Shown here one piece after another: positions 22,706 through 39,057 of a stretch of DNA of 64,000 nucleotides. The notes under the pieces were generated by a model. The model saw only the letters and a list, made by a program, of their open reading frames with translations. It had not been told where the DNA came from and did not search any database. A program made the translations under genes and the position numbers. The first letter of the stretch is position 1. Each line of letters starts with the position of its first letter. This DNA comes from Bombiscardovia apis (GTDB taxonomy: Bacteria; Actinomycetota; Actinomycetes; Actinomycetales; Bifidobacteriaceae), in contig NZ_AP026800.1 in the NCBI RefSeq assembly GCF_033095945.1, positions 1,860,001 through 1,924,000 of the forward strand, written 5' to 3'.

Positions 22706-22720
22706 GGGGTCCGCATCGTA
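22706..22720 (+). repeat. Shared upstream element of acyltransferase copies 2 and 3
   Basis: GGGGTCCGCATCGTA occurs here and again at 24069-24083, each about 58 bases before the start of an acyltransferase gene. Each is followed by TGTA and, nearer the gene, by CTTGGAGT and ATAATCT. The duplication therefore included the upstream region. Confidence 0.65.
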
Positions 22721-22777
22721 CTGTAAATTTGCAGCATAAGTGGTACTAGCTTAGGGGCTTGGAGTGCGAATAATCTT

Positions 22778-23938
22778 ATGGTAGCAAGTGTAGTCCAGAC
22801 AGAAAACTCCACTAATCCAAAACGCCGTGTGCGGAATTCGAACTTTGAAGCCCTGCGTCTTTTTGCCATGTTTCTTATAGTTCTCTTCCATTTCCACTGG
22901 GACAAAGCTAATATAGTGTCCACATCTAGCCCGTTCAAAAACACAATACTCGCCGGCTTAGTTACTCTGTTCTCAAACTGGGGCAACGTTGGAGATGCGT
23001 TGTTCTTCATGCTAAGTAGTTGGTTCTTGTGCGAAGAAAAACAAAGCATAAAAAAGAACTTATACAGAGCCTGGATTTTGGAACTTCAGATATTATTTTA
23101 TTCCGGCTGTAGCATTGCATTTTACTATCTTGTATTGCATATTCCCTACCATGGAACCGAATGGATTCCTGCCCTTTTCCCCTTTGCGACTGGCAGCTGG
23201 TGGTATGTTACCAGCTATGGCCTCTTCCTACTTATATCCCCATTCCTCACAATAGGACTAAAAAGAATGGGCCCCAGACTCCATGCGATTCTCGCTTGCG
23301 GGCTGCTTATACTCTACGGCTTTACCTCAGCAGCCGTATTCTCACTCGATATGACAGGAAGCGTATTCATCTTTACATATGTATATATCCTTATGTCCTA
23401 TATTCGATGGTACATACCGACACTTCTCGAATCCCGCAAAGCTGGAACTGTACTTATAATATTCGGTTTAGTTCTCGGATATACTAGTCAATGGACACTG
23501 GCCAAAATCGTGCCTATAAATTGGTGGCTCTTCCACATGCGCAATGCTACCTCTTTAGCAATCAGTCTCGGACTTATCGTACTGGCCATCAACAGACCGG
23601 CAACCCACTCACGCATCATCAATAAACTTGCCTCAACTACGCTCAGCATCTTCCTACTTCAAGTAAGCGTATTTGGAACATGTTATAGTCATTTCACTTA
23701 TAGTAACGCCTTAGGAGACGCCCGAGGCGTTCGACTATTCCTTCTAGACTTTCTACTAGCTATCATTTTCTTCGTCGCCTGCGTAAGTTTTGATTTACTG
23801 AGACAGCTATTTTTTGCCCTCACTGTCGATAAAGCGGAAGGCAAACTCTTCGAATGGATTTACCGCAATCTACGCAGTCTGTTCTACGCAATCACGCATG
23901 CAACAGTCACCCTAAACAAAGCGGTACAAAGTCATTAA
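22778..23938 (+). CDS. Acyltransferase family 3 membrane protein, copy 2
   Basis: This 386-residue protein of PF01757 (OafA/WecH-like) has about 10 membrane helices. It opens with RNSNFEALRLFAMFLIVLFH, containing the conserved Arg and His of the active site. It would O-acetylate or otherwise acylate sugars of the surface polysaccharide using cytoplasmic acyl-CoA. It is intact and aligns end to end with copies 1 and 3. The start ATG at 22778 corresponds to the position of the copy 3 start; no strong Shine-Dalgarno is visible for either. Confidence 0.88.
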   Translation: MVASVVQTENSTNPKRRVRNSNFEALRLFAMFLIVLFHFHWDKANIVSTSSPFKNTILAGLVTLFSNWGNVGDALFFMLSSWFLCEEKQSIKKNLYRAWILELQILFYSGCSIAFYYLVLHIPYHGTEWIPALFPFATGSWWYVTSYGLFLLISPFLTIGLKRMGPRLHAILACGLLILYGFTSAAVFSLDMTGSVFIFTYVYILMSYIRWYIPTLLESRKAGTVLIIFGLVLGYTSQWTLAKIVPINWWLFHMRNATSLAISLGLIVLAINRPATHSRIINKLASTTLSIFLLQVSVFGTCYSHFTYSNALGDARGVRLFLLDFLLAIIFFVACVSFDLLRQLFFALTVDKAEGKLFEWIYRNLRSLFYAITHATVTLNKAVQSH

Positions 23939-24068
23939 CAAATCGGACCATGAACAAAGCGTGTATCCCGCACTACCTAGCCCTGGTGATAATAAACGAC
24001 ATCTTCCTCATCTATTCATAACTATGAAGCCCACTATTAAGTAATGAGTAAGCACTCCAATCAAGTCA

Positions 24069-24083
24069 GGGGTCCGCATCGTA
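24069..24083 (+). repeat. Shared upstream element, second occurrence
   Basis: This is an exact second copy of GGGGTCCGCATCGTA (the first is at 22706-22720), again about 58 bases before an acyltransferase start codon. Confidence 0.65.
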
Positions 24084-24140
24084 TTGTACACTTTAGGATA
24101 TTCGTATGCGATCTTAAGAGCTTGGAGTTCAGATAATCTC

Positions 24141-25301
24141 ATGGCAAACGCAAGCGTAGCTCAAACGAAGAGCTACTCTAAACGTCGTATGCGGAATTCA
24201 AATTTTGAAGTCTTGCGTATCGTTTCCATGTTTCTTATCACTCTCTTCCACTTTCCTTGGGACAACGTTAATATTGCAGTCGGGTCAGATCCGCTCAGCA
24301 GCACAATAATTTCTAACACAGCTGCTTTTCTAACAAACTGGGGATCATTCGGGAATACCTTGTTCTTCATACTAAGTAGCTGGTTCTTATGCGAGGAACA
24401 GCAAAGTCTTAAAAAGAACTTGCACAGAGTCTGGCTCATGGAACTGCAGTTAATATTTTATGCTTGGTGTATCGTCGCGTTTGACTATTTCATTCTGCAC
24501 ATTCCATACCATGGCACAGAATGGATACACGTCCTTTTCCCCTTTGCGACCGGAGGTTGGTGGTATGTAACAGGCTACGGTCTTTTCCTATTTGTGGCCC
24601 CCTTCCTCACCTTAGGACTTCGTAAAATTGGCCCCAAAAACCATTTATTACTTGCTTCCTCGTTGCTTCTTATTTACGGGTTTACGCCTTCGCGAACTTT
24701 CATTATCGACATGCCTGCCTGTGCGCTTGTATTTGTCTATCTATACACGATAATGTCCTACATCCGCTGGTACATACCGGAACTTCTCGAATCTCGCAAA
24801 GCTGCGATTATTCTCATCATATTTGGTGTAGTTTTTGGCTTTGTTTACCAAGGGCTACTTAGCAAAATCATATCGGTCGACTGGTGGCTCTTCCACACGC
24901 GCAACGCCACCTCACTTGCAATCAGCCTCGGACTTATCATACTAGCTATAAACAGACCCGAAACACATTCACGTATCGTCAACAAGCTAGCTTCAGCTAC
25001 ACTCGGTGTCTTCTTGATACAAGTAAGCTCGTTGGGAAAAAGGTATTCCGTCTTCACTAGCAGCAGCGCCTTGGGGAACGCAATTGGCGCACGTTTACTC
25101 CTTCTAGACTTGCTCCTAGCTGTCGTCTTTTTCGTAGTATGTATAGCCTTTGATTTGCTACGACAGGTAATTTTTACTTTCACCGTCGATAAAGTTGAAG
25201 CCAAGCCATTTACTTGGCTATACCAAAATATCCGAAAACTCTTCTACACGACTTCACACAAAATAATTTTACTCAATAAAACAATAGAGAGTGAAAAGTA
25301 A
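24141..25301 (+). CDS. Acyltransferase family 3 membrane protein, copy 3
   Basis: This OafA/WecH-like protein has 386 residues from the ATG at 24141, chosen because it matches the copy 2 start. The frame runs on upstream to 24084, but that extension has no counterpart in copy 2. It has RNSNFEVLRIVSMFLITLFH at the start and about 10 membrane helices. A block around residues 247-300 is almost identical to broken copy 1 (52 of 53 residues from DWWLFH to SSLG), more alike than the rest of the two proteins. The likely role is O-acylation of the polysaccharide. Copy 4 starts only 2 bases after its stop. Confidence 0.88.
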   Translation: MANASVAQTKSYSKRRMRNSNFEVLRIVSMFLITLFHFPWDNVNIAVGSDPLSSTIISNTAAFLTNWGSFGNTLFFILSSWFLCEEQQSLKKNLHRVWLMELQLIFYAWCIVAFDYFILHIPYHGTEWIHVLFPFATGGWWYVTGYGLFLFVAPFLTLGLRKIGPKNHLLLASSLLLIYGFTPSRTFIIDMPACALVFVYLYTIMSYIRWYIPELLESRKAAIILIIFGVVFGFVYQGLLSKIISVDWWLFHTRNATSLAISLGLIILAINRPETHSRIVNKLASATLGVFLIQVSSLGKRYSVFTSSSALGNAIGARLLLLDLLLAVVFFVVCIAFDLLRQVIFTFTVDKVEAKPFTWLYQNIRKLFYTTSHKIILLNKTIESEK

Positions 25302-25303
25302 CC

Positions 25304-26497
25304 ATGACGAGTACTATCTCCCCAAAAATGCATAAGCCAAAAATGTACCAGTGGCGGAATTCCAACCTCGAAGCGCTTCGTTTATTCTCAATGCTCCTAA
25401 TCTTGTTCTTCAACTTCCCCTGGGATAGCAACAATATCATTGCTGCTTCTACTCCACTGAAAAGCCATATTCTTTCAAGCACTCTCACTTTTCTCAGCAA
25501 TTGGGGATACATTGGCTCTGATTTGTTCATTGTTTTAACTTGCTGGTTTTTATGTGAACAACCGCAAAGTATCAAAACAAACTTACATCGTGCATGGATT
25601 TTGGAATTTGAGCTGCTGTTCTACTCATACCTTACCGCAGTCGTATATCATGTTGCGTTAAGCGCTTCATACACTTATACGACGTATGACTGGCTCATAA
25701 TGCTCTTCCCATTTTCTATGACAGAGTGGTGGTATACAACTAGCTATATGCTATTCCTCTTCCTCGTCCCATTCCTTACCGTAGGCCTGCGTAAAATAGG
25801 TCCTAAATTCCACGGCATACTCGCAGCCGGTCTAATAGTTGTCTATGGTTTCCTGCCATCTAAACCATTCGTCTATGATATGGATATACCGAATAACAGT
25901 TTCACTGTCCGTCTTTTTTTGTACATCTACATCACAGTATCGTTTGCCCGCTGGTATTTACCGAACCTCTTAAAATCGCGCAAATTTGGCGCGTTCCTAA
26001 TAGTTGGAGGCCTAGCTTTCGGACTAATTGCTCAGTTGATTATGCGCATACTTGCCTATGATCTATTTGGCAAATGGTGGCTTTTTTACCCCAAAAATAT
26101 TCCTACTCTGGCAGTTAGTCTTGGCTTGGTCATCTTTGCCGGTACTTTCCCTGAGACACACTCGCGCATCGTTAATAGACTGGCATCAGCCACACTGGCG
26201 GTCTACCTCCTGTTCCAAGGCGGCCTAGGTGGGCATTTTGCGGCTTATACGCTTGGCTCCTTCTGGGGTGGCTCTAATGGAGCGCGGCTGCTGCTTATCA
26301 ATATTGCATTAGCCGTAGCAATCTATGCTGCTTGCCTGCTTATAGACCTATTACGTCAACTTGTTTTCACAGTAACCATTGACAAAGTTGAGACCCCCCT
26401 ATTTGAATGGGCATACAGCCTTGTGAAGAAGACACTCAATAGAATTATGAACTCGATTATGCGAACCTTCGGTAAGCGGACTGAAGTTAGCGAATAG
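25304..26497 (+). CDS. Acyltransferase family 3 membrane protein, copy 4 (divergent)
   Basis: This is a 397-residue member of the same tandem family, recognisable by WRNSNLEALRLFSMLLILFF and the closing VDKVETPLFEWAYSL. It is more diverged than copies 1-3 and carries Asn where they have His in the LFHF motif, so activity may differ. The start ATG follows the copy 3 stop by 2 bases, which points to co-translation. Predicted location is the cytoplasmic membrane, with about 10 helices. Confidence 0.85.
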   Translation: MTSTISPKMHKPKMYQWRNSNLEALRLFSMLLILFFNFPWDSNNIIAASTPLKSHILSSTLTFLSNWGYIGSDLFIVLTCWFLCEQPQSIKTNLHRAWILEFELLFYSYLTAVVYHVALSASYTYTTYDWLIMLFPFSMTEWWYTTSYMLFLFLVPFLTVGLRKIGPKFHGILAAGLIVVYGFLPSKPFVYDMDIPNNSFTVRLFLYIYITVSFARWYLPNLLKSRKFGAFLIVGGLAFGLIAQLIMRILAYDLFGKWWLFYPKNIPTLAVSLGLVIFAGTFPETHSRIVNRLASATLAVYLLFQGGLGGHFAAYTLGSFWGGSNGARLLLINIALAVAIYAACLLIDLLRQLVFTVTIDKVETPLFEWAYSLVKKTLNRIMNSIMRTFGKRTEVSE

Positions 26498-26559
26498 CTA
26501 CTATGACAGTGAGTTCTTTATACCGTAACTCGCGGTCTACAAGTATAAACTAGCAAAGA

Positions 26560-27405
26560 CTACTTTTGCCCTCTAGAAACTATCGAGTAGAAATGGTGAC
26601 CTACTCGCTCTTCCTCAGGCGGGAGCTTCATATAGTTACCGTAAATACGCTGCAAAATCGCATCAGCATTGTCTGGAATACGCACTTGTAAACCTTCAAA
26701 AGTTGCCAGTTTACCTTCGCCAAAGTCGCTTTTTTTATCGATAACCTTACAACTGTTATCGTCATTCCAAATCTTGCAAGAGACATACTCTGCTTGCTCA
26801 TACTCCTCGACAGTAGCCCGTTTGCAGAGTTCTCGCCAGTAATAAGCAGGACTTTTCATCATTGCAGCTCGTACCTTCTTCAAGATACGTTTAAGTTGGC
26901 CTGCACTCCGGTCGAACGAATCGGAATTTAAAGCATGCACGTATTTCATCGTCAGAGAATACGTATCCTCGTTCTCTTTCAATGCCTCATCTTGATTGCC
27001 TCGAAGCCCATCAAGCGGATAGATGTCAATAAACGTACCCATCTGAGGTATTTCGTCGCCGTACTCCCCAATCTGTTTGTACCTCGTATCGCTAACACGA
27101 GTAATCAAAAACGGGATCAGATTGTCTTCTGATGGATGAAGCGCCACTAAAGAGCCAGTATCGTGCCGAGCGTTATCAAAATACTGAAGCAACTTGTTGT
27201 AATCAGGCCTAGGCATCCAAATATCTAAATCATCGTCCCAAGGGATAAAGCCTTGGTGACGCACCACTCCGATTAGTGACCCATACGCAACATAGTAATG
27301 CAGCTCCTGACTATTGCATATCTCAATAAACTTCTTGAAAATATCTAGTGTGGCTACCTGAATCTCACCACTTGTCAACTCTTGCTTTCGATCTACCATC
27401 TGCAT
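26560..27405 (-). CDS. LicD-family phosphocholine transferase
   Basis: This 281-residue cytosolic protein has the LicD nucleotidyltransferase-fold signature: AYGSLIGVVRHQGFIPWDDD at about residues 40-59, continuing to LDIWMPR. The GS and paired Asp residues are the metal and nucleotide site. LicD proteins move phosphocholine from CDP-choline to glycan repeat units; some relatives move other phospho-alcohols. The ATG directly abuts the Wzx stop, so the two are translationally coupled. A LicB-like transporter and LicC-LicA fusion lie on the same strand about 6-8 kb upstream, which supports phosphocholine as the group moved. Confidence 0.85.
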   Translation of the reverse strand: MQMVDRKQELTSGEIQVATLDIFKKFIEICNSQELHYYVAYGSLIGVVRHQGFIPWDDDLDIWMPRPDYNKLLQYFDNARHDTGSLVALHPSEDNLIPFLITRVSDTRYKQIGEYGDEIPQMGTFIDIYPLDGLRGNQDEALKENEDTYSLTMKYVHALNSDSFDRSAGQLKRILKKVRAAMMKSPAYYWRELCKRATVEEYEQAEYVSCKIWNDDNSCKVIDKKSDFGEGKLATFEGLQVRIPDNADAILQRIYGNYMKLPPEEERVGHHFYSIVSRGQK

Positions 27406-28833
27406 TTATCCTTTACTAGCAGTTTCCGACTTGCTAATATGCAGCTGTCGAATCAGTGCTTTTGCATTCTTGGAGAAACAGGCAATAAACAGTGCGTAAG
27501 CCAAAATGTAAACAACAATAGCAATTAGAGATGGAAGTAATCGAGCAACAGCAATAAATACTATTGTTAAAACCAGCTCGCCTAATGATAAGGCGCTTTT
27601 CTTCAGGTTGAACAGGCTTGTGATATAAGCCTCCGAAAGTATACTCCTTAAAGCGATGACGAGAGTAACGCCACAGAGTACAGCAGTTATAGAATGCAGA
27701 AGATAAACGCCAATAAGAGTTAGTATAAAACTCACGAAAGTGGACATCACATTGATTTTTAGCATAGTTCGCTCACGCCGCGTTACATTGAAAATAGTGA
27801 CGCACAGTATGCTCATCTTGCTGTCGAATATGCACACGGGGAGTAACAAAATGAGGTAGGGGAAACTATCCGCATAACTGGGCAGCCATAGCCCTAGCAG
27901 CCACACAAGAGGGAAATATAATACATAAATAAGTGGGAACAACAGACTCATGATATTTTGCGCTGTGGCAAAGAAAGACTTGATATCTTTCTCGTTGCTT
28001 TGTCTCAGAGCGGGGAACAGTACTATACTTGCCTGTTCCACAAAAGCTAGGAAGAAATTCACCAGCGAAATAATTAAAGAAAGCTTTCCGAATTTTTCAA
28101 TGCCCCACACCATATCGATGAAAAACCTGGCAATACCCAGTATGAGCATACTCGCAATATTGGCTAGCATAAGGTTGACGCCAACTTTTATACTGCTCCA
28201 GCCTTGCCTAGCTGCAGTCTTAAACCCAAGCCAAGGTGCCCCAACAAAATCCCTCAGATTCCATATACAATAAATCAGCTGGACGATAGTGGATACCGTG
28301 TATGCGAAGACGTATGGGCGGAAGGAATGGACACCAATAGCCATAAATACGACAAGTGGTATAAGGAACGAAACACGCTCAACCACCACAGAGTATGATG
28401 ACTTTTTCGTCTCATTCATACTTTGCAGCACATTCGACATGTAAGTTCCAGCATTCTGAAGCACCAGATAAATGCTGGTCTGGAGAATAACGAAAGTCCT
28501 ATCGGGTCCGGGATTCATAATGAAGCCAAGAGCCGCAATGACCACAGACATAATAGTCTGGTATGTCACTCCGAAAGTGAACTGAGCCTTCACCGAGGCT
28601 TTGTCCATTTTATCCCTGGGAATGCCGCCCATCTTCAAGTACACGCCAGAGCTAAGTCCAAAATGGAAGAACCCTACGTAAGAGATATAAAACAAGTAGA
28701 GTTGCCAATATCCGAACTGCTCAATGTGAAGCAACTTAGGTATAACCAAGGCTTGCAGGATGCTTAGGAACATACTGATGCCTTGAGCGAAAAATGCAAT
28801 CGCCATATTGGAAAGAAGAGACTTACGATTCAT
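27406..28833 (-). CDS. Wzx-type repeat-unit flippase
   Basis: This 475-residue protein has about 14 hydrophobic segments and the opening MNRKSLLSNMAIAFFAQGIS, as in the polysaccharide transporter branch of the MOP superfamily. It would flip the lipid-linked repeat unit to the outer face of the membrane. The frame extends to a TTG at 28842, but the ATG at 28833 is preferred: it overlaps the stop of the small upstream gene by one base (TGATG), a classic coupling arrangement. It is followed immediately by the LicD gene. Confidence 0.87.
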   Translation of the reverse strand: MNRKSLLSNMAIAFFAQGISMFLSILQALVIPKLLHIEQFGYWQLYLFYISYVGFFHFGLSSGVYLKMGGIPRDKMDKASVKAQFTFGVTYQTIMSVVIAALGFIMNPGPDRTFVILQTSIYLVLQNAGTYMSNVLQSMNETKKSSYSVVVERVSFLIPLVVFMAIGVHSFRPYVFAYTVSTIVQLIYCIWNLRDFVGAPWLGFKTAARQGWSSIKVGVNLMLANIASMLILGIARFFIDMVWGIEKFGKLSLIISLVNFFLAFVEQASIVLFPALRQSNEKDIKSFFATAQNIMSLLFPLIYVLYFPLVWLLGLWLPSYADSFPYLILLLPVCIFDSKMSILCVTIFNVTRRERTMLKINVMSTFVSFILTLIGVYLLHSITAVLCGVTLVIALRSILSEAYITSLFNLKKSALSLGELVLTIVFIAVARLLPSLIAIVVYILAYALFIACFSKNAKALIRQLHISKSETASKG

Positions 28834-29060
28834 CACGAACAAAAGATCATATAAGCACTTTGTGCTTCGCTGATCTTCTCCAAGTCTCTCGCTGATACGA
28901 CAAGGCCGCCAAATGCCAAAACTGCTGCTAAGCCACTAACTAGGGAGAGTGCAGCATCCACTAGTGGCATTGAAATACCAATCATGCTAAAACTCAACGC
29001 AAGAACACTCACCCATTTTTGCTTATAGGGAGCAGCGAAAGTAGCTTGTTTGGTCTTCAA
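28833..29060 (-). CDS. Small two-helix membrane protein coupled to Wzx
   Basis: This protein of about 75 residues has two hydrophobic segments (WVSVLALSFSMIG and the AALSLVSGLAAVLAFGG region) and a short charged tail. The frame extends to 29105, but the TTG at 29060 has GAGGGGGAG 6 bases upstream and is the best start. Its stop overlaps the Wzx ATG by one base, which argues that it is a real translated gene. No family is recognised. It may assist the flippase; that is a guess from position. Confidence 0.55.
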   Translation of the reverse strand: MKTKQATFAAPYKQKWVSVLALSFSMIGISMPLVDAALSLVSGLAAVLAFGGLVVSARDLEKISEAQSAYMIFCS

Positions 29061-29234
29061 TGATTGCTCCCCCTCAGCAACGCTCAATAAGGCAGTACAA
29101 CTCACACTTTACAAGGCAATCTAGCCTTCTGCCTTATCTGACAATTACAAACATAATATCTGCGCATATCCTGAACACGCAGCTTTGTAATCTATCTCAT
29201 TCAAACGAAGCGCAAATACTAAAAGTTTTCCCTT

Positions 29235-30089
29235 TTACAGTTCAGTAAGCACGATTTTTTCAGATCGAATTTGATTCGTCAGATATGAAATCATTCTTCG
29301 CCTTGCGTCTGCTTGTACATAATTCACACTTGAGTGTTCATCGTGTATGACTTGCAACGACGGAGTGTAACGAATCGTATACCCCTTCCGTTGACAACGG
29401 ATAAACAGAAGATCCTCTTCCATGTATAGGAACGTTCTCGGATCAAACGCTACCTGCTCCTGTTCTACAAACCGCGGGCCAAAAACGATAAAAGCGCCAT
29501 GAAGCACTACATTTTCATAATCACGATTGTATTCACTCTCAGTCTTGTCAGGAGTAATTTTATCGATGAACCGCTGATAAATAGTATCGAACCCTTTGAA
29601 GTTACATACGATATAAGCAAACTTTACAAGTTCATGCTTTACAATAACTTGCTTAAGTTTCTTCTTGCTTATTCCCTCAAAATGTTGTGGGTTGCTATGT
29701 TTACCTGTTTTTTCAGAGATAATATCAGGACCACAAACATCGACAGTTTCCATGACTGCTTGCAACTTAGGAATGAAATCCTTTTGCTCTATGACAATAT
29801 CGTTGTTGACAGTAACCACGATATCTGCATTGAGTTTTTCCTTTGCAAAGGTATAGCCAACGTTGTTTCCCCGTGCAAAACCCAAATTCTGTTCGTTCAA
29901 GAGTACATGCACATTGCTGACTGTCTTATATTTCGTATGGAGAAGCTTCCCGCTTCCATTGGTGGATCCGTTGTCGACAACGATGATTTCACAACTTTTA
30001 GCATTCTTCAAACTCAGTATCGATTCAACGCAATCAACGGTATCGTCGTAAGTAAAAAAATGTAGTACTACAAAAGCGATTTTATTCAT
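29235..30089 (-). CDS. GT2 glycosyltransferase
   Basis: This protein of about 284 residues has a single GT-A domain and no membrane helix. Motifs are CEIIVVDNGSTNGSGK near residue 38, NEQNLGFARGNNVG near 70 and IVVTVNNDI (the DxD-equivalent) near 95. This pattern resembles rhamnosyltransferase-type GT2 enzymes that extend repeat units on the inner membrane face. The ATG at 30089 follows GAGGG by 5 bases and is preferred over the GTG codons upstream. It is co-directional with the Wzx-LicD block. Confidence 0.85.
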   Translation of the reverse strand: MNKIAFVVLHFFTYDDTVDCVESILSLKNAKSCEIIVVDNGSTNGSGKLLHTKYKTVSNVHVLLNEQNLGFARGNNVGYTFAKEKLNADIVVTVNNDIVIEQKDFIPKLQAVMETVDVCGPDIISEKTGKHSNPQHFEGISKKKLKQVIVKHELVKFAYIVCNFKGFDTIYQRFIDKITPDKTESEYNRDYENVVLHGAFIVFGPRFVEQEQVAFDPRTFLYMEEDLLFIRCQRKGYTIRYTPSLQVIHDEHSSVNYVQADARRRMISYLTNQIRSEKIVLTEL

Positions 30090-30199
30090 AACTACCCTCA
30101 CCACTCTACAAACCGTTCAAACTTTCCAAGTATAACCATAGGGACTTGCATGGTCATTACTCATATCAAACATCAATTGAAAAGCTTAGCGGGATTTCT

Positions 30200-31564
30200 T
30201 TAATGTGTGAACGCGAAATAGACCAGATTAATGAAAGCGGGTATAACGATAATCCATCTGGTTAATGTATTACGATTCTCCGACACAAACGTCATGAGTG
30301 CCATAATTACCAACACAGAGGAAACAAAAAGGGTACGGGTGCCTGAAATATCGATGGTGGGGGAAAACGACATGATTGCAGCAGCAGCAGCAGCTCCAAG
30401 CCAAGAAAATAAAACTAAGCCCTTCTGTTTCGATAAGAGAACCGAGCTCAAAACAATGCACACAAAAAGGGAAAACCAAAAAAGATAAGACCCCACGTGG
30501 CGTAAGAAGCCATCTTGTAGAGAATTAAAGGAAAAAAGAACAGTTTCAAGACCGACAGTCCTTGAATACCCGATGATAATTAGACTGGTCACAGCCCATA
30601 TCGTTGAAATATTTAGTACTCTGCTTTCAACAGGACTATTCATCTCAACAAGCTCAGATGGTTGAACAGTATCACAGCGGCGTTGTACATATGCAATAAG
30701 CATCAATATCACAACAACATATACAAGCACTAAGAAAGATGTTGTGAACTGATTGAACTGCCACTTCATGCCGTATCGAAGCTTCTGGAATATAGACATG
30801 TGTCCAAATTCAGGGAACCACCGAGCAGTCTCGTTTGGAGTTCGACTCTTATTGCCCGGTGAAACTAGTTCACTTAGCACAGCAACAAGGGAGAACGCAG
30901 TAAAGGCAATCAGTCCGCGCGGAACCTTCTTATGCTGGCGAACCAGCTGAATTACGGTAAGCGCACTGAAACCTACTAAGCATGGGCCGATCTGCTCCAC
31001 GCCTAGAGAACCCAAAATAGCACATATCACACAAAGAACTGTGTGCTTAGGTGTTTCTCCACGATACAAATCTGCAAGATATGTGCCAGCAAACAAAGCA
31101 AGAGCTCCAGGCCATAAGTAAAACAAAGCACCTGCCATCCAGAAAGACGAAAGGTATATTACATTTGGAGCAATCAGCCAAAATGCAGCATAGGTGAGCA
31201 CAACGGTCTCGGTAGTGAAATAGTTAAAGGTGATTCGAATAAGCGAATACACAAGCAGCGCAAGCATAAAAATGTTAACAATTCGCCACACTAGCATCGG
31301 CAGGGGGTAGAAAATAGCAACGGCAGTTTCAGAGAAGATTCGCCCTGACCACTCCATATAACGCGTTTGAACCCAAGAAAATACATTATACTGTTTCATG
31401 CGGTCTGTAAAATCAATATCATCCGCAAAGCGTTCAATTCTGCAAGTCGCTAAAAATGTCAAAAGGCTGCACACGAGCCATGCTGAAGCCCTTTGCAATC
31501 TTACTTTTTCTTCAAGTATCCGCCCGACAGAGAACATCCTTCTTACCCCACTTTGTAAATCCAT
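30200..31564 (-). CDS. Polytopic membrane protein, DUF6056/GtrII-like
   Basis: This protein of about 454 residues has about 10-11 membrane helices. The first loop holds FADDIDFTDRMKQY followed by WSGRIFSE. An acidic pair after the first helix and a W-GR pattern are typical of DUF6056/GtrII-type proteins, which are thought to be GT-C glycosyltransferases acting outside the membrane on polysaccharide. The ATG at 31564 follows AAGGGG by 5 bases. It could be the partner of the GtrB-like enzyme at 17579-18586. Exact activity is unknown. Confidence 0.6.
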   Translation of the reverse strand: MDLQSGVRRMFSVGRILEEKVRLQRASAWLVCSLLTFLATCRIERFADDIDFTDRMKQYNVFSWVQTRYMEWSGRIFSETAVAIFYPLPMLVWRIVNIFMLALLVYSLIRITFNYFTTETVVLTYAAFWLIAPNVIYLSSFWMAGALFYLWPGALALFAGTYLADLYRGETPKHTVLCVICAILGSLGVEQIGPCLVGFSALTVIQLVRQHKKVPRGLIAFTAFSLVAVLSELVSPGNKSRTPNETARWFPEFGHMSIFQKLRYGMKWQFNQFTTSFLVLVYVVVILMLIAYVQRRCDTVQPSELVEMNSPVESRVLNISTIWAVTSLIIIGYSRTVGLETVLFSFNSLQDGFLRHVGSYLFWFSLFVCIVLSSVLLSKQKGLVLFSWLGAAAAAAIMSFSPTIDISGTRTLFVSSVLVIMALMTFVSENRNTLTRWIIVIPAFINLVYFAFTH

Positions 31565-31862
31565 ATTCACCCCTTCACAGCCTCATCTCACAGTGTCCGC
31601 TCATCCGTGAAAGTCGTATAGCCTCAGCGATTATACCAACCAACACCGAAAAGGAATGACATAATTGGGTGAACTGGATCGTATGGGCCTTTTGCAATGA
31701 CAGATAGTTTTGACACTGCCCATTGCACTCATAAGTCCTTCACTGTTTCAGACCACCGCCAAAACATGCTAACGCGGTCGGCATCAGTATGAACCTGCAA
31801 GCAAGCTGAAATACTGCTGCGCTAGCAAAAACCATGCGAGGAAGTTGAATAAAAAAGACAAG
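31565..31862. other. Intergenic stretch, possible degraded coding
   Basis: About 300 bp separate the GT4 stop from the DUF6056-like start. On the minus strand there are short sensible-looking fragments interrupted by stops (for example ADRVSMFWRWSETVKDL near 31740-31790), which may be remnants of a lost gene or mobile element. No family is recognised. Confidence 0.35.
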
Positions 31863-33014
31863 CTAATATTCACGCGGCTTGCCCTGTGCTCCTTCGACAA
31901 CGCGCTTATAGTAGTCAGCTATTTGAGGAAAAATAGGCTTAGCAAAAACAGTTGACACAGCGCTAGCGTATTCGCCAACACTATCTGCTTCTTCTGGATT
32001 CTTCATAAGAAATTCGACCTTCTCCGCAAGATTCGAAGGAGATCCTACACGGTATAAGAAACCGTTTTTACCTTCCTTGATCAGCTCTTTAGTGAAACCG
32101 GCATCTGCACCAATTAATACATTGCCATAATACATAGCCTCAATGCTGACTCGACCGAAAGCCTCATTCCTAGAGCATACAAGCGCAATGTCGGATTGCT
32201 GGCGAATCATAGTCAAATCATCCTGCTGCCCAAGGTATCTCACGTTTTTTGTCTGCAAATATGGAGCAATATATGATACGTCGCCTGACCCACATAGAGT
32301 AAGTCGCACATTGTATCCTTTTTGTTCTAGCTCTTGAACCGCTTGAATGGCATCCAACTGGCCTTTTTCGGGAGACAAAGCGCCCACCATGAGTAATCGG
32401 CAAACACCATCTTCCATGAATTGCCGCGATTTATGGTATTTACTGTCGCGGGAAACTTTGTCTAAAATTGTCGTAGTAGTTTTGAAGGTGAAACGTCCGT
32501 TATAGGCTTTTTCAACAGCCGGAGATATAAAAATAGCGGAAGATGCTTGGGCTAACCGCTGAGCCTTGCCCTTATTAAAGTGTTCGATTTTATGGTCACT
32601 CTCCATAAATTCTCGAATATGCCAAACGTGTGGCAAACCGTTCTCGACAGCGAGCACTGCCCCATACAAAGTTGCGAAAGAATTCGAATGGACAATATCG
32701 ATATTATGTGATTTAAGTTTGGCGCTCAACCGCTTTCTAGATATCGTATTGCACACAACAGCGTAAGCAATCTGCAAGAAATCGAGAATTCTTTTCTTGA
32801 ATGGTCTCTTTCGTAGATGACGTACCGGAACTGAGTAATATCCAATCCATACCGTGCAACCTACATCTTCGAACGCTTGCTGAAGAGACTTATTCGGAAA
32901 AGGCAATACCACGTAGAACTGGTCTTCGGAGTCTGTTGCATCCTTGAGCCAATCCAGCAATGCTAAGTTGGCACCTGTAGCATACGGCTGATGGCAACAA
33001 ATCAATATCTTCAA
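31863..33014 (-). CDS. GT4-family glycosyltransferase
   Basis: This 383-residue GT-B fold protein opens with ILICCHQPYATGANLALLDW. The C-terminal Rossmann domain has LLMVGALSPEKGQLDAIQAV and the EAFGRVSIEAMYYG segment, which contains the E-x7-E donor-sugar motif. It is a cytosolic retaining glycosyltransferase that would add one sugar to the lipid-linked repeat unit. The start is TTG at 33014 with AGGAG 8 bases upstream. It lies in the minus-strand run of locus genes, downstream of the choline-module genes. Confidence 0.87.
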   Translation of the reverse strand: MKILICCHQPYATGANLALLDWLKDATDSEDQFYVVLPFPNKSLQQAFEDVGCTVWIGYYSVPVRHLRKRPFKKRILDFLQIAYAVVCNTISRKRLSAKLKSHNIDIVHSNSFATLYGAVLAVENGLPHVWHIREFMESDHKIEHFNKGKAQRLAQASSAIFISPAVEKAYNGRFTFKTTTTILDKVSRDSKYHKSRQFMEDGVCRLLMVGALSPEKGQLDAIQAVQELEQKGYNVRLTLCGSGDVSYIAPYLQTKNVRYLGQQDDLTMIRQQSDIALVCSRNEAFGRVSIEAMYYGNVLIGADAGFTKELIKEGKNGFLYRVGSPSNLAEKVEFLMKNPEEADSVGEYASAVSTVFAKPIFPQIADYYKRVVEGAQGKPREY

Positions 33015-33155
33015 CTATTTTTCTCCTGAATGCATCCTACGTGCTTTTCCTATCTCTAACGTCTATTCTACCTAGGACCAGCAACACAGTAACGCACGCA
33101 GGGACTGCATTCCGTGCACAACCGGCTCAAAAGTAGACCCGCAAGGTAGGCGTAG

Positions 33156-34103
33156 TCAGTTTTCGCAATCTGATTTGTGATGTAGAAGGTCTTTCCAGTT
33201 GCTGGAAGCGCCGATTGAACCGCACAGCACGATAAAGCAGCAAACTACCGTTATTGCATTTGGAACTGTCCCTTGCAAGACCAAACCAAAAATCACAGCC
33301 CAAGCAGAATAGGAAATATTCAAAGCCATTGCAGGAGCAGCTCCGATTGCATCTATCGCCTTGTAATAGAACAAATACGAAGCCGCGCCAGCCAAAGCAG
33401 CGAGCGCCACTATTAACGTGGCGAGAGATGGCACTGCAACTGCTGCGAAAGGCAAGGCCTTAAACAGTGGGAGCACCAGCCCTAGGTAGGCCAGTGCAGA
33501 TACCGTTTCACGAATTTGTATCGCTGTCTCATTATCAACATCCCCGGCACGCATACCCCAATCGCAGAGCACTGCTTCAGAACCCCACCCCAATACGGTC
33601 AGCGATGCTCCAGCTATGCCCCAGAAGACACTGCCCTGCTGGGAAGAAGGCGCTGAGAACCATCCCATGGCCATAACAGCAAGAACGGCGGTTGCCAGTG
33701 AGGCAAGCTGTTGTACGCTCATGCGCTCCTTAAGCAAGATAAAAGCCAGAAGAGCGCCGAACGCCGGATATAGAGACGAAATGATAGCGGTATAACCAGG
33801 ACCAATATTGTTAATAGCTACAACATAGCCGGTCATGCCAAGTGGCCCGCCCAGTAGCGCTCCGACAGCTACCACAAAACCACTTCGTGTTTTGAGCCCC
33901 TTCCAAGTGTCCGATAACCGGTGTTTGAACCCCATATATGAAAAGAGCCAAATGGCGCAAGCCGCATCATGCACAAAAGCCGCAACGATAGCTGCAAAGG
34001 CAAGAGAACCAACTGTTGAATCGTAGGGGCTCATTAACATCGATATACCAAGAACCACTGTGTCTAAGCCCCAAAGTGCCCCGCTAAGAATCCCGAACCG
34101 CAC
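33156..34103 (-). CDS. DMT-family transporter, LicB-like (choline uptake)
   Basis: This 315-residue protein has about 10 membrane helices in two EamA halves, like LicB of Haemophilus and Streptococcus. LicB is the choline permease of the phosphocholine pathway. Sequence alone gives only the DMT superfamily; the choline assignment rests on the LicC-LicA fusion gene, which ends a single base upstream of the GTG start at 34103. That spacing implies a two-gene operon with coupled translation. Confidence 0.75.
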   Translation of the reverse strand: MRFGILSGALWGLDTVVLGISMLMSPYDSTVGSLAFAAIVAAFVHDAACAIWLFSYMGFKHRLSDTWKGLKTRSGFVVAVGALLGGPLGMTGYVVAINNIGPGYTAIISSLYPAFGALLAFILLKERMSVQQLASLATAVLAVMAMGWFSAPSSQQGSVFWGIAGASLTVLGWGSEAVLCDWGMRAGDVDNETAIQIRETVSALAYLGLVLPLFKALPFAAVAVPSLATLIVALAALAGAASYLFYYKAIDAIGAAPAMALNISYSAWAVIFGLVLQGTVPNAITVVCCFIVLCGSIGASSNWKDLLHHKSDCEN

Positions 34104-34104
34104 G

Positions 34105-35871
34105 TCAGGATTCCTTGTATAGTTCTAGCGTCGAATCAAGGAAGTGCTGCGCATATTCGTAGTATGTGTAAAGCCACTCACCGACTGGAGCGCCCTCCGA
34201 TTCTTTATACAAAGCCCACAAGTACCAACACCATCCTGCCAGCTGCACATGGGCGAGGTTATGCCGCCTCTCGTCTGCAGTCGGAGTACGGCAAAAATAA
34301 GCCTTCAAAGCAACATCTATCTCTTGGTCATTGAGTCGGCAGCACACGCAGAAGGTGCCAAAATCGTTGGCATAGTCTCCCATTCCTGCATATTCCCAAT
34401 CGATTAGTGAATATTTTCCTGTGTCGTCAATCAAGAAGTTCAAATCGAAGAAATCATTATGGCACAAGCACTGCGGTGCACTATCAGCCATGACAAAATG
34501 CTCTAGCTGGTCCACTTTCTGCGCCATTTCAGCATAACCAGTTATCTGAATTGGCCCGCGTTCAAGTAAGAGACGCTCATAGCGTTTAGCTTCATCATAG
34601 AAGTTGAACACATGGTCTATTTGAGCACCACATTCATGTAACGTTCGTGCCATGCTCATAGCTTGGGTGATTTGGGCATTGTCATGAGGATCGAGATTCT
34701 TGCAATCAGGGATAAATTTCGAAATCTTCCAACCCTTAACTGGGTCTTCGTGAACAAAAGTGTCGTCAAGGCCGAGCTTCTGGGCGACGGTCTGTGCTTT
34801 CACCTCACCGGCACGATCAACTAGTTTCTCGGTGCCCACTCCAGGATGACGATAAACATATTCGCTTTCCCCGATTGAGAAATGGCAAGACAGGTTCGTA
34901 AGCCCCTGCTTAAGTGGATACACATCGTGAATCTCGTCTTTGCTGCAGTCTAAGACCGTCACAATATTGTCAAAAATCTCAGAATCAACATTCTGGAGAA
35001 AATGCGGGTCGAATCCTCGAAGTTCGTCTAGCGAATCAAACTCATTGATAACTCCGGCCTCGTACGGCCTCATATCCATCTCGAACTCATTGACGTGCTC
35101 TATGTAGATGCTTTCCCAAAGTTTGTCAGCCGTTTCGGGCAAATCATATTCATCGCCCAAAATAGAAACGAACTTGCGCGAAAACGCACTGTCAAAGTAC
35201 ACATGGCCAAGCATGTACCAACTATCAGCACCGCCAATAGTCACACCGGTAATTTTATTATCAATACCGGTTGAAATACACCATTCTTTTGTGGGACCAT
35301 CCGCATACTGAGCAGCGTAATATGCTTTCCACACATATTCTTCGAAAGGATTGCTCGTAAAGTAGTCATCGCTTGAACAAATGTATGTATTGCTTAGCTT
35401 GTCTTTCACTTTCCATAGTGAGCTATTATTGTTGCGGACCGCATAGTCGTCATTGACCACAATCTTAATGCCGTATTTTTCTTGGAGGTAAAAGAATAGC
35501 TCCTTTTTATAGCCAACCACCACACTAATATCTTCGATTCCAGCACTTTGCAACTGCTCAATCTGTCGCTCAATAAGCACATCTCCACGCACACAGAGCA
35601 AGCCTTTAGGCTTCTCGTACGAAATTGGGGCGAATCGTGACGAAAGACCGGCGGCCATAATGACAGCATTGCGCACTTTATACGGTTGCAGAGCTGCAAT
35701 ACCAGCGCGAGTAATAGTGCGCTCCGAGATGTAGCCACAAGCCTGTAGCTCTTTAATCGTTGAGTTCACACTTCCGAGAGACAATTTGGTGTGATTTGCC
35801 AATGTACGCTGCGTACTATTGGGTATCCTGTACAGTTCTGTAAGTACAAGAAACTGTTTCTTATTCAACAT
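34105..35871 (-). CDS. Fused HTH - CTP:phosphocholine cytidylyltransferase - choline kinase
   Basis: This 588-residue protein has three parts. Residues 1-65 form a MarR-like winged helix-turn-helix. Residues 66-300 form a LicC-type nucleotidyltransferase with MAAGLSSRF (72-80), EKPKGLL (86-92) and SSDDYF (166-171). Residues 310-588 form a LicA-type choline kinase with HND (471-473), N478 and IDWEYAG (490-496). All key residues are present, so the protein should phosphorylate choline and convert it to CDP-choline. The HTH suggests it also binds DNA. ATG at 35871 follows GGGGA, and a 12-bp inverted repeat lies just upstream. It forms an operon with the LicB-like transporter. Confidence 0.85.
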   Translation of the reverse strand: MLNKKQFLVLTELYRIPNSTQRTLANHTKLSLGSVNSTIKELQACGYISERTITRAGIAALQPYKVRNAVIMAAGLSSRFAPISYEKPKGLLCVRGDVLIERQIEQLQSAGIEDISVVVGYKKELFFYLQEKYGIKIVVNDDYAVRNNNSSLWKVKDKLSNTYICSSDDYFTSNPFEEYVWKAYYAAQYADGPTKEWCISTGIDNKITGVTIGGADSWYMLGHVYFDSAFSRKFVSILGDEYDLPETADKLWESIYIEHVNEFEMDMRPYEAGVINEFDSLDELRGFDPHFLQNVDSEIFDNIVTVLDCSKDEIHDVYPLKQGLTNLSCHFSIGESEYVYRHPGVGTEKLVDRAGEVKAQTVAQKLGLDDTFVHEDPVKGWKISKFIPDCKNLDPHDNAQITQAMSMARTLHECGAQIDHVFNFYDEAKRYERLLLERGPIQITGYAEMAQKVDQLEHFVMADSAPQCLCHNDFFDLNFLIDDTGKYSLIDWEYAGMGDYANDFGTFCVCCRLNDQEIDVALKAYFCRTPTADERRHNLAHVQLAGWCWYLWALYKESEGAPVGEWLYTYYEYAQHFLDSTLELYKES

Positions 35872-35881
35872 TTATGTCCCC

Positions 35882-35926
35882 AGCATGTTCAAATCTGCGA
35901 TTAAAGTCCAACTCTTTGAACATGCT
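35882..35926 (-). promoter_or_regulatory. 12-bp perfect inverted repeat upstream of the HTH-LicC-LicA gene
   Basis: AGCATGTTCAAA (35882-35893) and TTTGAACATGCT (35915-35926) are perfect complements with a 21-base spacer. The nearer arm ends 10 bases before the start codon and touches the GGGGA ribosome site. It could be an operator, possibly for the HTH domain of the gene's own product, or an mRNA hairpin controlling translation. Confidence 0.6.
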
Positions 35927-36035
35927 ATACCGGAAAGCCCGCCCTAGCAAATGTCTTTACAACAGGCACGCAAGCCATAAGACACCATAAAATGCGCCGT
36001 AGCATCAAAACGGCTGAAAATGCGACACTAAACCA

Positions 36036-36101
36036 AAAGTGCAACGCTCTTGAGTCTCGCCAGTAATTACTAACCAGCAAGAAAGAAGGGCGTTGCACTT
36101 T
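36036..36101. repeat. 12-bp inverted repeat, terminator or insertion-sequence relic
   Basis: AAAGTGCAACGC (36036-36047) and GCGTTGCACTTT (36090-36101) flank 42 bases. It lies just after the Wzy stop on the minus strand, where the second arm is followed by a short T-run, so it may act as a long-loop terminator. The GTTGCACTT wording also recalls ends of IS30-type elements, so it may be a remnant. No transposase is present. Confidence 0.45.
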
Positions 36102-36110
36102 CCTAGCAAC

Positions 36111-37475
36111 TCACATTTCTACAGCATTGCTTGAACTAACTTCATGCCTTTTACTCTTCAAAAAGGGTAACTTCGAACAAACGCTCGCAAGCTTTTCTCT
36201 GATTTTTCGTTCTGTTTCCGTATCTTCCCTTTTGAAAAGAAGTCGCAACAGAATATACATAAAGATGACTTCCCAAAGCATAATGTCGCCGAAGAAGACA
36301 TTCTGGAAGGACTCAAAGAAGACCAGTGGAACAAAGCAGCAATACTGCGTTGCGAGGAAAAGACTAGGCGACTTCTGCATTCGCTTGGTCAGATACCAGC
36401 AAATTGCAATCATAGCTGCGATAGGAATAAAGCAGAAAACGCCGTAGTCATAGAAGTACTCATAGAAGCCAGTGTTCACTGTAGCCGCGCCCGTCGAATA
36501 CACCCTAAGGGCACTCGGAGCATCAGCATCGAGTCCCAATAAATTGTCCAACTGGCAGAAGCCGAAGTAGAAACCTCTAAACGAGTAAAGTCCCCAGAAA
36601 TCATGTGCCTGAATTCCGGTTTTCAATGTCAGGTTGAGATTATTAAACGACAGAGGGAAATAACCGTAGTAAACCGATAAGACCTCAGCACCAAACTGCG
36701 GTCCAGTATAAGCAATGTAGCCCTCATACGGTCCGTTATTCCCCACATAGCGCATTCTTGCATTAGTTAGCATCGCCATGGCAACGACAGCAGCAATTGA
36801 GAACAACACTCCGCCAGATATGGCAAGTTTCCCCTTAACACTGAGCGCAGTCTTGCTTTTACGCCTCGACCAAAGTACTAAGATTACGAAGGTTGCCACC
36901 TGAACAAGTGTCATAAGAACAGAAATTCGCATGCTTCTCGTCACAACAGGAATTGCCAGGAGAACGATAACCCACGCAATAAATGATTTCTTTTTTGTAA
37001 CGAAATAAGCAACTATATCGACGATGACAAAAACGAATAAATTTCGTGTAATAAAAGCTATAAGTGGAGCAGAGTACGTATGGATGTCAATGTTAACAAA
37101 CGCAGGGACAATAGAACCAGAACCAAGATAACTCTCAAAGAAAAACAGTAGAACATACCCGATGTTCATCGCATGCAAAGCACCAACCCTTGCACTACGA
37201 GCATCGGGAAACAGGCTAGCATCTATTCTCACCTTATCGGCAACTGTGAAATTATATATAATCAGCGCAATGTTTAGATAGATAAAGATCAGATAGAAGT
37301 TGTTGTTAATTGCAGTATCAACGTGCCGTGACCAGTTGAGCTGCCACAACCACATCGGCAAATAGATGCCAAGAATGACGAATAGATTCAGCCCAAGGAC
37401 TCTTCGCTTTATAAAAATCGAATACAGTGCCGTTACCAAGTAAACCAGTAGTGTACCAGCGAACAAATACTGCAT
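36111..37475 (-). CDS. Wzy-type repeat-unit polymerase
   Basis: This 454-residue protein has about 12 membrane helices and a long extracellular loop in the second half (about residues 240-340, with TNARMRYVGNNGPYEGYIAY). This is the layout of oligosaccharide repeat-unit polymerases. It would link flipped repeat units into the polymer on the outer membrane face. AAAGG precedes the ATG by about 7 bases. It stands at the upstream end of the minus-strand gene run. Polymerases of this class have little sequence conservation, so the call depends on topology and context. Confidence 0.75.
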   Translation of the reverse strand: MQYLFAGTLLVYLVTALYSIFIKRRVLGLNLFVILGIYLPMWLWQLNWSRHVDTAINNNFYLIFIYLNIALIIYNFTVADKVRIDASLFPDARSARVGALHAMNIGYVLLFFFESYLGSGSIVPAFVNIDIHTYSAPLIAFITRNLFVFVIVDIVAYFVTKKKSFIAWVIVLLAIPVVTRSMRISVLMTLVQVATFVILVLWSRRKSKTALSVKGKLAISGGVLFSIAAVVAMAMLTNARMRYVGNNGPYEGYIAYTGPQFGAEVLSVYYGYFPLSFNNLNLTLKTGIQAHDFWGLYSFRGFYFGFCQLDNLLGLDADAPSALRVYSTGAATVNTGFYEYFYDYGVFCFIPIAAMIAICWYLTKRMQKSPSLFLATQYCCFVPLVFFESFQNVFFGDIMLWEVIFMYILLRLLFKREDTETERKIREKLASVCSKLPFLKSKRHEVSSSNAVEM

Positions 37476-37898
37476 GGCCCCGCCTTTCTAACTATTCGTC
37501 CAGTACATAGCGACCTGCTTTTTACCGCATTTAAGAATAATTAAATCTGTTCTTGCACACCACTTAGTCAGGTATCTACAAGCCTAACTTATGATACAAC
37601 AACCAATTATCTCTTTGATTATAAGCGTTATTGGTCATTAGGGCTGACTGCACAATGGATTGAGAACTATTCGCTTGCTATTAGACTGTCAACCATAGCC
37701 AATCTTCACGCACAACCTATACAATTACTCTTCCGCCATAGTCCACCCCGCAGAGGTTAAACTCGAAGGTGCGAGCAAAATGCTACTCTTTAGCTAGTAT
37801 GCATGTGGATGAGTCTTTACAGCGAACAACTTCGGGAGCAACTCAATGAACTTCGGCGGTTTAATAACGATACTTGAATACGTGAGAAGTCTTGCAGC
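37476..37898. other. Intergenic region between divergent Wzy and GT2 genes
   Basis: About 420 AT-rich bp contain no gene. It must hold the promoters for the minus-strand locus genes and the plus-strand GT2. A TGCTACTCT string near 37782 is shared with the arm of the large hairpin at 38979-39030. Nothing else is recognised. Confidence 0.5.
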
Positions 37899-38768
37899 AT
37901 GACAGTTTCAGTAATCATCCCTACTCTTAATGCCGGAGAACAAATTACCGAGCTCCTTGAAACTCTTTCTGCTCAAGATTTGCGCCCTGACGAAATTCTA
38001 GTTGTAGATTCACAATCCGACGACGATACCGTCAAAAGAGTATCGGCTTTTGAAAACGTTAAGTTAATCAGCATCGAGCGGTCAACTTTCAACCACGGTG
38101 GCACCAGAGATATGGCTTTTAAACAAGCCCATGGCGACTATGTGCTTTTCTTGACCCAAGATGCGCTCCCCAAAAATCGAAGTTACATAAGAAATCTTCT
38201 TGCACCTTTTAGCAACCCCAAAGTTGGAATGGCCTCGGGTCGCCAAATTGCACGGGCAGATGCAAGACCATTTGAAAAACTAGTTCGTCAATTTAATTAT
38301 CCAGATCAATCGTTTACCCGTTCTAAGGCGGACCTGCCGAAATTGGGTATTAAAACATTTTTTGCCTCCGATGTCTGCTCCGCATATCGCACAACTAGCT
38401 ATATGGCGGTCGGCGGTTTTGGCAAAGCAGTCGACACTAATGAAGATATGCTAATTGCCGCAAAGATGATTAACTCAGGTTATGACATAGCTTATGTAGC
38501 AGATGCTGAGGTAATCCATTCTCACAATTTATCGTTCAAACAACAATATAAGCGAAACTATGCGGTAGGCAAGTTTATGGAAACCCACAAAACAGCATTT
38601 TTGGGAGCCGACAAGGGTTTGAATAACGAGGGTATCCAACTAGTCAAATATGTAATGAAGAATTTACTCCGCGAGAGACATTATCTTTCTGCTTATTCAT
38701 TCTCACTAGATTGCGTCGCGAGAATAGCTGGCAATAAAGCAGGGGTAAGATCCGCCAAACGGCTGTAA
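37899..38768 (+). CDS. GT2 glycosyltransferase, rhamnosyltransferase-like
   Basis: This 289-residue GT-A protein has SVIIPTLNAG at the start, DEILVVDSQSDDDT near residue 31, FNHGGTRDMAFKQA near 65 and FLTQDALP (the DxD-type site) near 85. The NHGGTRD plus TQDA combination is typical of dTDP-rhamnose-dependent transferases such as WbbL and RfbN, so rhamnose is the likely sugar. No rhamnose-nucleotide synthesis genes lie in the window. The ATG at 37899 has no strong Shine-Dalgarno. It is co-directional with the priming transferase, separated by a G-run and a large hairpin. Confidence 0.85.
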   Translation: MTVSVIIPTLNAGEQITELLETLSAQDLRPDEILVVDSQSDDDTVKRVSAFENVKLISIERSTFNHGGTRDMAFKQAHGDYVLFLTQDALPKNRSYIRNLLAPFSNPKVGMASGRQIARADARPFEKLVRQFNYPDQSFTRSKADLPKLGIKTFFASDVCSAYRTTSYMAVGGFGKAVDTNEDMLIAAKMINSGYDIAYVADAEVIHSHNLSFKQQYKRNYAVGKFMETHKTAFLGADKGLNNEGIQLVKYVMKNLLRERHYLSAYSFSLDCVARIAGNKAGVRSAKRL

Positions 38769-39030: not shown

Positions 39031-39057
39031 ATGGTTGAAGAGCGGGAAAGGTGTCTG

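Follow-up and report, generated by a model that had tools for sequence, protein, structure and literature searches.

What does a lic-type gene set do in a relative of the bifidobacteria, and how is it controlled? The question is raised by a stretch of 64,000 nucleotides from Bombiscardovia apis (contig NZ_AP026800.1, positions 1,860,001 to 1,924,000; called the window below, with numbering from its first letter). It contains, within a polysaccharide locus, genes for a LicD-family transferase, a transporter of the drug/metabolite transporter (DMT) type and a protein that unites LicC and LicA. An initial annotation had proposed that they form a complete module for phosphocholine decoration. This is the best-supported reading of the sequence, since a LicB-like importer, LicC, LicA and LicD are all present and LicB adjoins the fusion. 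The gene finding is real but ordinary in kind. The new part of the analysis is a regulator domain fused to the two enzymes and a perfect, operator-like dyad in front of the fusion gene, the conserved core of which is tied to the helix-turn-helix (HTH) domain. We consider it likely, although well short of certain, that the locus is a choline-branch lic module which decorates an exopolysaccharide and is autoregulated through the dyad by a regulator-enzyme resembling NadR.

The fusion protein and its partners

The placement of LicD, the DMT transporter and the fusion on one strand is borne out by domain matches and by the list of open reading frames (ORFs) of the window, where all three lie on the minus strand at 26560-27405, 33156-34103 and 34105-35871, respectively, as first assigned. 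The last ORF had been described as a LicC-LicA fusion. Both domains are confirmed, but a winged HTH at the N-terminus had been overlooked, so the protein is HTH-LicC-LicA. The winged HTH occupies approximately residues 1-60 (35692-35871) and carries the helix motif SLGSVN. Both PF12802 and PF13412 match it above their cut-offs (MarR_2 with 31.2 bits, cut-off 27). The LicC (CTP:phosphocholine cytidylyltransferase) domain spans approximately residues 66-290 (35002-35676), with residues 68-288 aligning with pneumococcal LicC (PDB code 1jyk, E 1.7e-39). The LicA (choline kinase) domain follows at approximately residues 300-588 (34105-34974), with residues 307-574 aligning with LicA (PDB code 4r77, E 3.9e-23). 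An AlphaFold2 model based on a 29-sequence alignment has a mean predicted local distance difference test (pLDDT) score of 88.5, with values above 90 over residues 1-60. In a fold search of the PDB with this model, LicC and LicA structures rank first, with template modelling (TM) scores, taken on the target, of 0.86 for the LicC domain and 0.87 for the LicA domain.

The transporter gene begins 1 bp past the fusion gene. Its product of 315 amino acid residues has an EamA match, and its best solved relative is pneumococcal LicB (PDB code 7b0k, E 3.3e-29 over residues 2-295), by which it is predicted to be a LicB-type choline importer. The gene at 26560-27405 codes for a LicD-family protein of 281 residues, a predicted phosphocholine transferase, which has the GSLIGVVRHQGFIPWDDDLDI stretch in its translation and matches PF04991 with 134 bits (cut-off 22.6). 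It is the only match to this family in the source genome, a single contig of 1,937,113 bp.

The dyad and the helix-turn-helix domain

The inverted repeat AGCATGTTCAAA-N21-TTTGAACATGCT, with perfect arms of 12 bp, is located at 35882-35926, 10 bp ahead of the ATG of the fusion gene. The pattern has one match in the window and none in 100 shuffles of the window, and arms of at least 12 bp were found in 1 of 3000 shuffles of the region upstream of the fusion. Its core, GTTCA-N24/25-TGAAC, was compared in 45 non-redundant upstream regions of fusion genes, including that of the window and several from close relatives. The exact core is present in 31 of them, a form with one mismatch (gap 25) in 7, and the core is missing in 7. 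None of the 45 has the exact core at gaps of 20-23 or 26-30, and the chance expectation is approximately 0.0005 per upstream region. The prediction that more than 50% of new loci would carry the core was fixed before those from a draw of genomes across the phylum were examined. Among the 17 new loci the exact core occurs in 10, at 12 sites, every one of which has a gap of 24 or 25. Two of these loci are copies of earlier ones (L107 of L039 and L109 of L020); after their removal the exact core remains in 9 of 15, with L104 and L105 near-identical. Of 98 half-sites, 96 have T or C at the base preceding GTTCA, a position outside the scanned pattern.

The occurrence of the dyad was compared with that of the HTH. 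The helix motif, of SLG-VN type and written as the regular expression [ST][ILV]G.[VLA]N, is present in 52 of 63 non-redundant homologs, and 49 of these 52 have the dyad at 9-10 of 10 bases (42 exact). None of the 11 homologs without the motif reaches 9 of 10 bases for the dyad; some of their HTHs are clearly degenerate, while three are altered only in the helix (GLATVN, GVATVN). Contrasts were also drawn between six independent pairs, using a tree from which the HTH residues had been left out. At the threshold of at least 9 of 10 bases, a mean of 5.6 of the 6 pairs change in the same direction and none in the opposite one (median p 0.031).

The location of the sites is similarly restricted. 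In the 39 fusion loci from a scan of named genomes, 759,995 bases altogether, there are 37 sites of the form YGTTCA-N24/25-TGAACR. Of these, 34 precede a fusion gene and 3 precede a distant stand-alone LicB-like gene (L012 and L014); nine of the 34 were assigned by eye, where the stop-to-stop ORF started upstream of the site. Sites with a gap of 23 number five in the same loci, and three of them represent a single repeated sequence of Collinsella, remote from the fusion. The stricter TGTTCA/TGAACA form is found in 22 of 29 fusion-bearing genomes. Two genomes that share one family code (G534 and G459) have more sites, before solute-binding-protein genes near the fusion and EutH genes.

Several points weigh against so close a link between dyad and HTH. 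Of the 15 new loci, 6 do not have the core. The regular expression was built after the alignment had been seen and was widened once, which brought L029, a locus with an exact site, into the motif group. When only exact sites are counted, the independent pairs give 2.9 in the same direction and 0 in the opposite one, and the median p of 0.25 is not significant. Three rows (L022, L031 and L113) have the motif and lack the dyad; L022, which stands downstream of LicB as a second copy, may have no promoter of its own. In the source genome the looser core is not enriched (8 sites, control 7), and of the three sites of the stricter form (control 0) two are within ORFs. These two TGTTCA-N24/25-TGAACA sites were considered as marks of further regulon members and set aside as chance matches. 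One such match, the second within the window (TGTTCA-N25-TGAACA at 25524-25560), is inside an acyltransferase ORF and is taken as chance.

Two variants of the arrangement were observed. Several fusions of the Olsenella group and of Varibaculum (L016, L018-L021 and L028, with L020/L021 a second copy) keep the length of the domain but have neither the HTH motif nor the dyad, as if the regulation had decayed and the enzyme had been retained. Bifidobacterium sp. ESL0784 (L007, 9995-13730) has two tandem fusion genes, and both have a dyad of their own (matching at 10 and at 9 of 10 bases).

The substrate

The intact nucleotidyltransferase and kinase motifs of the initial annotation hold for catalysis. 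The equivalents of LicA residues Thr29, Asp176, Asn181, Asp194 and Glu196 are kept in the fusion, and its residues T325, D473, N478, D491 and E493, together with the Trp pair W549/W552, are present in 71 of 71 relatives, near copies among them. The choline contacts of the kinase are another matter, because only 5 of the 8 residues given as the contact set of LicA (PMC4364537) are identical in the fusion.

The LicC domain keeps D168, W197 and E277. The second of these, at LicC-domain position 197, is in our numbering what we take to be Trp136 of Spn-LicC. This residue is Trp in 57 of 57 rows linked to LicB and Tyr in 4 of 4 rows linked to EutH (3 genomes); the 16 rows with neither link divide into 11 with Trp, 2 with Tyr and 3 with another residue. 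These rows include copies from one genome. The fusion of the window has Trp at this position and LicB as its partner. An aromatic box has been described, and the 2-aminoethylphosphonate (AEP) enzyme of A. rimae is stated to have it too (PMC6697681). The ethanolamine permease family EutH (PF04346) has no match in the source genome (the control search gave matches in 2 of 14 genomes), and phosphoenolpyruvate (PEP) mutase (PF13714) has none either (matches in 11 of 14 control genomes). Choline is favoured as the substrate of the module because of Trp197 and the LicB partner and because neither EutH nor PEP mutase was matched.

The points that speak against choline are found mainly in the two pockets. 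Relative to LicA, the kinase has Glu213 replaced by Cys, Tyr268 by Trp and Val178 by Phe. At the position of this Glu, which in LicA pairs with the charge of choline, the 71 relatives have Cys (53), Ser (15), Thr (2) and Gln (1). In pneumococcal LicC, Asp105 and Asp192 form the choline end of the site (PMC6697681), and in our own numbering of the alignment they correspond to Ser166 and Glu253 of the fusion, both invariant in 29 of 29 sequences. Among NCBIfam models GntI fits the kinase part best, but its 88 bits fall well short of the cut-off of 357. In addition, Mf1, a member of the LicD family, can transfer phosphoethanolamine as well and accepts CDP-ethanolamine (PMC11982090), and no choline-binding repeats (PF01473) were found in the source genome.

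A separate branch of HTH-LicC-LicA proteins was observed in L150, L151 and L153, which are linked to EutH and have Tyr at LicC-domain position 197. L150 and L151 have a shorter paralog too (HTH and nucleotidyltransferase by Pfam in L150, a BLAST match in L151), as well as solute-binding-protein genes with the dyad in front. It is possible that the EutH-linked branch represents a CDP-ethanolamine version of the pathway. Trp or Tyr at position 197, taken together with a LicB or EutH partner, is a sequence rule which may separate the choline branches from the ethanolamine branches.

Proposed mechanism and alternatives

NadR combines an HTH, a nucleotidyltransferase and a kinase in one repressor. 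The fusion has the same three types of part in one chain; the substrates differ, and the comparison concerns only the way of working. In the proposed mechanism choline would be imported by LicB and phosphorylated by the LicA domain, and CDP-choline would be made by the LicC domain. LicD would then move phosphocholine onto a sugar of the lipid-linked repeat unit of the locus glycan, ahead of its export by the neighbouring flippase. The winged HTH of the fusion would bind the pair of GTTCA half-sites, with their gap of 24-25 bp, ahead of its own gene, and the protein would control the fusion-LicB operon (and stand-alone LicB). Our guess is that the fusion is probably a repressor relieved by substrate or product. 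The spacing of the half-sites (about 30 bp) and the attachment of the HTH to an enzyme body suggest that a dimer spans the promoter. By analogy with NadR, the enzyme domains could sense substrate or product and alter the DNA binding, and import and activation would in this way follow the choline supply.

This proposal can be extended beyond the window. We regard it as probable, to a modest degree, that HTH-LicC-LicA proteins are widespread actinobacterial trifunctional regulator-enzymes, which sense choline (ethanolamine in the EutH branch) and set import and CDP-alcohol synthesis through a GTTCA-N24/25-TGAAC operator, and that bee-gut and vaginal Bifidobacteriaceae use them to tune the phosphocholine of their polysaccharides to the choline supply. 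With a conserved operator-like site and a DNA-binding domain built into the enzyme, phosphocholine would be regulated in a way other than phase variation.

The same module might serve another small amine, either ethanolamine or a methylated ethanolamine. The altered LicA and LicC pocket residues point in this direction, as do the activity of Mf1 with CDP-ethanolamine and the three genomes where fusions 51-54% identical stand with EutH in the place of LicB. This explanation is rather unlikely for the window, where the transporter is of LicB type, the source genome has no EutH match and Trp197 is as in all the LicB-linked rows. We give less credence to the idea that CDP-choline is consumed in phosphatidylcholine or a glycolipid and not in a polysaccharide. 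Such a role is known for the LicCA of Treponema denticola, which works with CPT (PMC8590670), and the sole NCBIfam match of LicD is Mf1, a diacylglycerol cholinephosphotransferase model (98 bits, below the cut-off of 225). However, the LicD gene abuts a flippase-like gene within a polysaccharide locus, and in a survey of 26 species Lic-1 enzymes go together with phosphocholine linked to carbohydrate (PMC10434233), so that a lipid product appears rather improbable. The possibility that the nucleotidyltransferase serves AEP phosphonate tailoring, like PntC, is already disfavoured and can hardly be credited. PntC is close to LicC, and loci of both types are present in A. rimae (PMC6697681), but the source genome has no PEP mutase match and the fused kinase would be left without a role.

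The dyad, too, might be a general promoter element or an RNA stem-loop of the 5'-leader, and not the target of the fused HTH. It is indeed located in the leader or promoter region, and in some dyads the outer bases are symmetric. Across the family, however, the symmetry fades beyond the core, and some upstream regions have two dyads, which overlap in L012 and L014. The core is absent where the HTH motif is absent and is present before stand-alone LicB-like genes, and no Rfam match (riboswitch) was obtained at the gathering score for 26000-38000 of the window. A promoter scan was uninformative (21 found, 26.3 expected). We consider such an element doubtful, slightly less so than a lipid product, and prefer recognition of the dyad by the winged HTH.

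Distribution of the fusion

The conservation of the genes across the genus group and the family rules out chance ORFs or a partial module. Among the 27 genomes of the genus group, 3 match: two with full fusions (the window genome and B. xylocopae) and one with a kinase-only match at 23%. The initial annotation had called for a search of bifidobacterial genomes for the fused protein, and this search yielded a long match in 15 of 189 genomes of the family (one ended by a contig edge) and a weak partial match in 5 more, 20 in all. LicD was found in 45 of the 189 and in all 15 long-fusion genomes (Fisher p 6e-11, uncorrected for relatedness). Choline-binding proteins were rejected as readers of the mark: the source genome has none, and the nine of the 189 with PF01473 matches do not include any of the 15 fusion carriers.

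The 39 named loci include Bifidobacterium, Gardnerella, Collinsella, Olsenella, Atopobium, Actinomyces/Schaalia and Eggerthellaceae. In 37 of them the fusion has a LicB-like ORF next to it (34 at 35% identity or more), and 29 have a LicD match within the retrieved flank. Fusion, LicB and LicD occur together in each of the four named loci from Gardnerella. In the even phylum draw of 396 genomes a long fusion match occurs in 17 besides that of the window; the overall tally of 316 of 396 consists mostly of weak domain matches. Lic-type loci related to that of the window are common in Coriobacteriia.

The LicD proteins of the fusion loci are spread over several clades, while LicB is constant beside the fusion. 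The LicD of the window belongs to a clade of 7 rows, in which the 3 with known context, including its own, all lie with a fusion gene; this tree has no pneumococcal or Haemophilus references of known donor. The LicD of the window groups with the LicD proteins of Bifidobacterium sp. ESL0682 and B. xylocopae, each of which is encoded in a fusion locus. In a quick tree of the fusion the bee rows were placed next to Collinsella, at a distance from Gardnerella, but a single clade is compatible with the data (approximately unbiased test, p-AU 0.318), and two separate gains in Bifidobacteriaceae are not claimed.

The host and the possible readers of the mark

C-reactive protein and the platelet-activating factor (PAF) receptor, which were proposed in the initial annotation to recognise the mark, are vertebrate proteins. 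The RlmB protein near the locus has as its nearest named relatives those of Bombiscardovia nodaiensis (88%), Bifidobacterium xylocopae (86%) and B. actinocoloniiforme (85%). The first two are carpenter-bee isolates, and Bombiscardovia apis was described alongside Bombiscardovia nodaiensis (PMC10433979); B. actinocoloniiforme is from a bumblebee (PMC5540593). The habitat is thus probably the bee gut, which makes the two vertebrate proteins unlikely readers here, and the proposed recognition fits the locus weakly. It may be relevant to Gardnerella, a carrier of the same module. Most of what is known of phosphocholine decoration comes from bacteria that live with vertebrates, and a complete module in a probable bee-gut member of the Bifidobacteriaceae lies where the vertebrate phosphocholine receptors are absent. 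Other selective reasons are therefore to be considered, such as phage, antimicrobial peptides, adhesion or choline from pollen.

Comparison with known systems

The lic1 locus of Haemophilus influenzae is subject to phase variation by repeats, whereas the window has the fused HTH and the conserved dyad. The two have in common the four activities (licABCD) for glycan-linked phosphocholine (PMC10434233). The pneumococcal lic1 and lic2 loci (licA, licB and licC; licD1, licD2 and tacF; PMC4364537) likewise have the same four activities and a LicD gene together with a flippase gene. However, in pneumococcus the genes are separate and the acceptor is teichoic acid, while the window has a single HTH-LicC-LicA protein, an exopolysaccharide-type locus, an operator-like dyad and, as far as found, no choline-binding repeats. 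The LicCA of Treponema denticola also has LicC and LicA in one chain but feeds phosphatidylcholine (PMC8590670). Further related systems are the HTH-LicC-LicA loci of Gardnerella, Coriobacteriia and Actinomyces. Their fusions are 46-71% identical in the named loci, LicB adjoins in most and the dyad is present in many; LicD is drawn from several clades around a stable fusion-LicB core.

The claim that phosphocholine decoration had not been described for the genus has to be qualified. Lic genes are in print for relatives: LicD in Gardnerella was noted in 2010 (PMC2928729), and in 2019 lic genes were reported close to the pnt loci of two Coriobacteriia, A. rimae and O. uli (PMC6697681). A LicCA fusion is in print for Treponema denticola (PMC8590670). 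Among the open-licence papers listed on bifidobacteria and phosphocholine, none appeared to describe the module for Bifidobacterium, and the term Bifidobacterium is absent from the 26-species Lic-1 survey (PMC10434233). None of the open-licence papers that best matched terms for the parts of the fusion protein mentions a helix-turn-helix.

The surrounding polysaccharide locus

The GC content is 41-47% across 18-40 kb of the window and 51-59% on both sides, with the exception of 47% at 16-18 kb. The locus contains a priming sugar transferase, two GT2 and one GT4 glycosyltransferases, a weak Wzx match and two candidate polymerases. The glycosyltransferase neighbours of the initial annotation are confirmed, while its Wzx and Wzy assignments are less secure. 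The Wzx-type flippase (27406-28842, minus strand, 478 residues), which abuts LicD directly, matches PF01943 (Polysacc_synt) with 25.6 bits, below the cut-off of 28.2, and has no solved relative at E 0.001. One Wzy candidate is a membrane protein at 36111-37475 (minus strand), for which the role is suggested by position; it has no Pfam match and no solved relative at E 1. The other is a DUF6056 protein at 30200-31570 (minus strand; PF19528, 81.4 bits), a possible polymerase. GT2 enzymes are coded at 29235-30104 on the minus strand (PF00535, 51.3 bits) and at 37899-38768 on the plus strand (PF00535, 82.4 bits), the GT4 enzyme at 31863-33014 on the minus strand (PF00534, 104.6 bits) and the priming sugar transferase (Bac_transf) at 39031-40701 on the plus strand (PF02397, 216.9 bits).

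Four acyltransferase genes of the Acyl_transf_3 type are arranged in tandem at 21459-26497 on the plus strand. The first is divided into two ORFs, 21459-21947 and 21949-22608, each with a weak partial match, and is probably a pseudogene.

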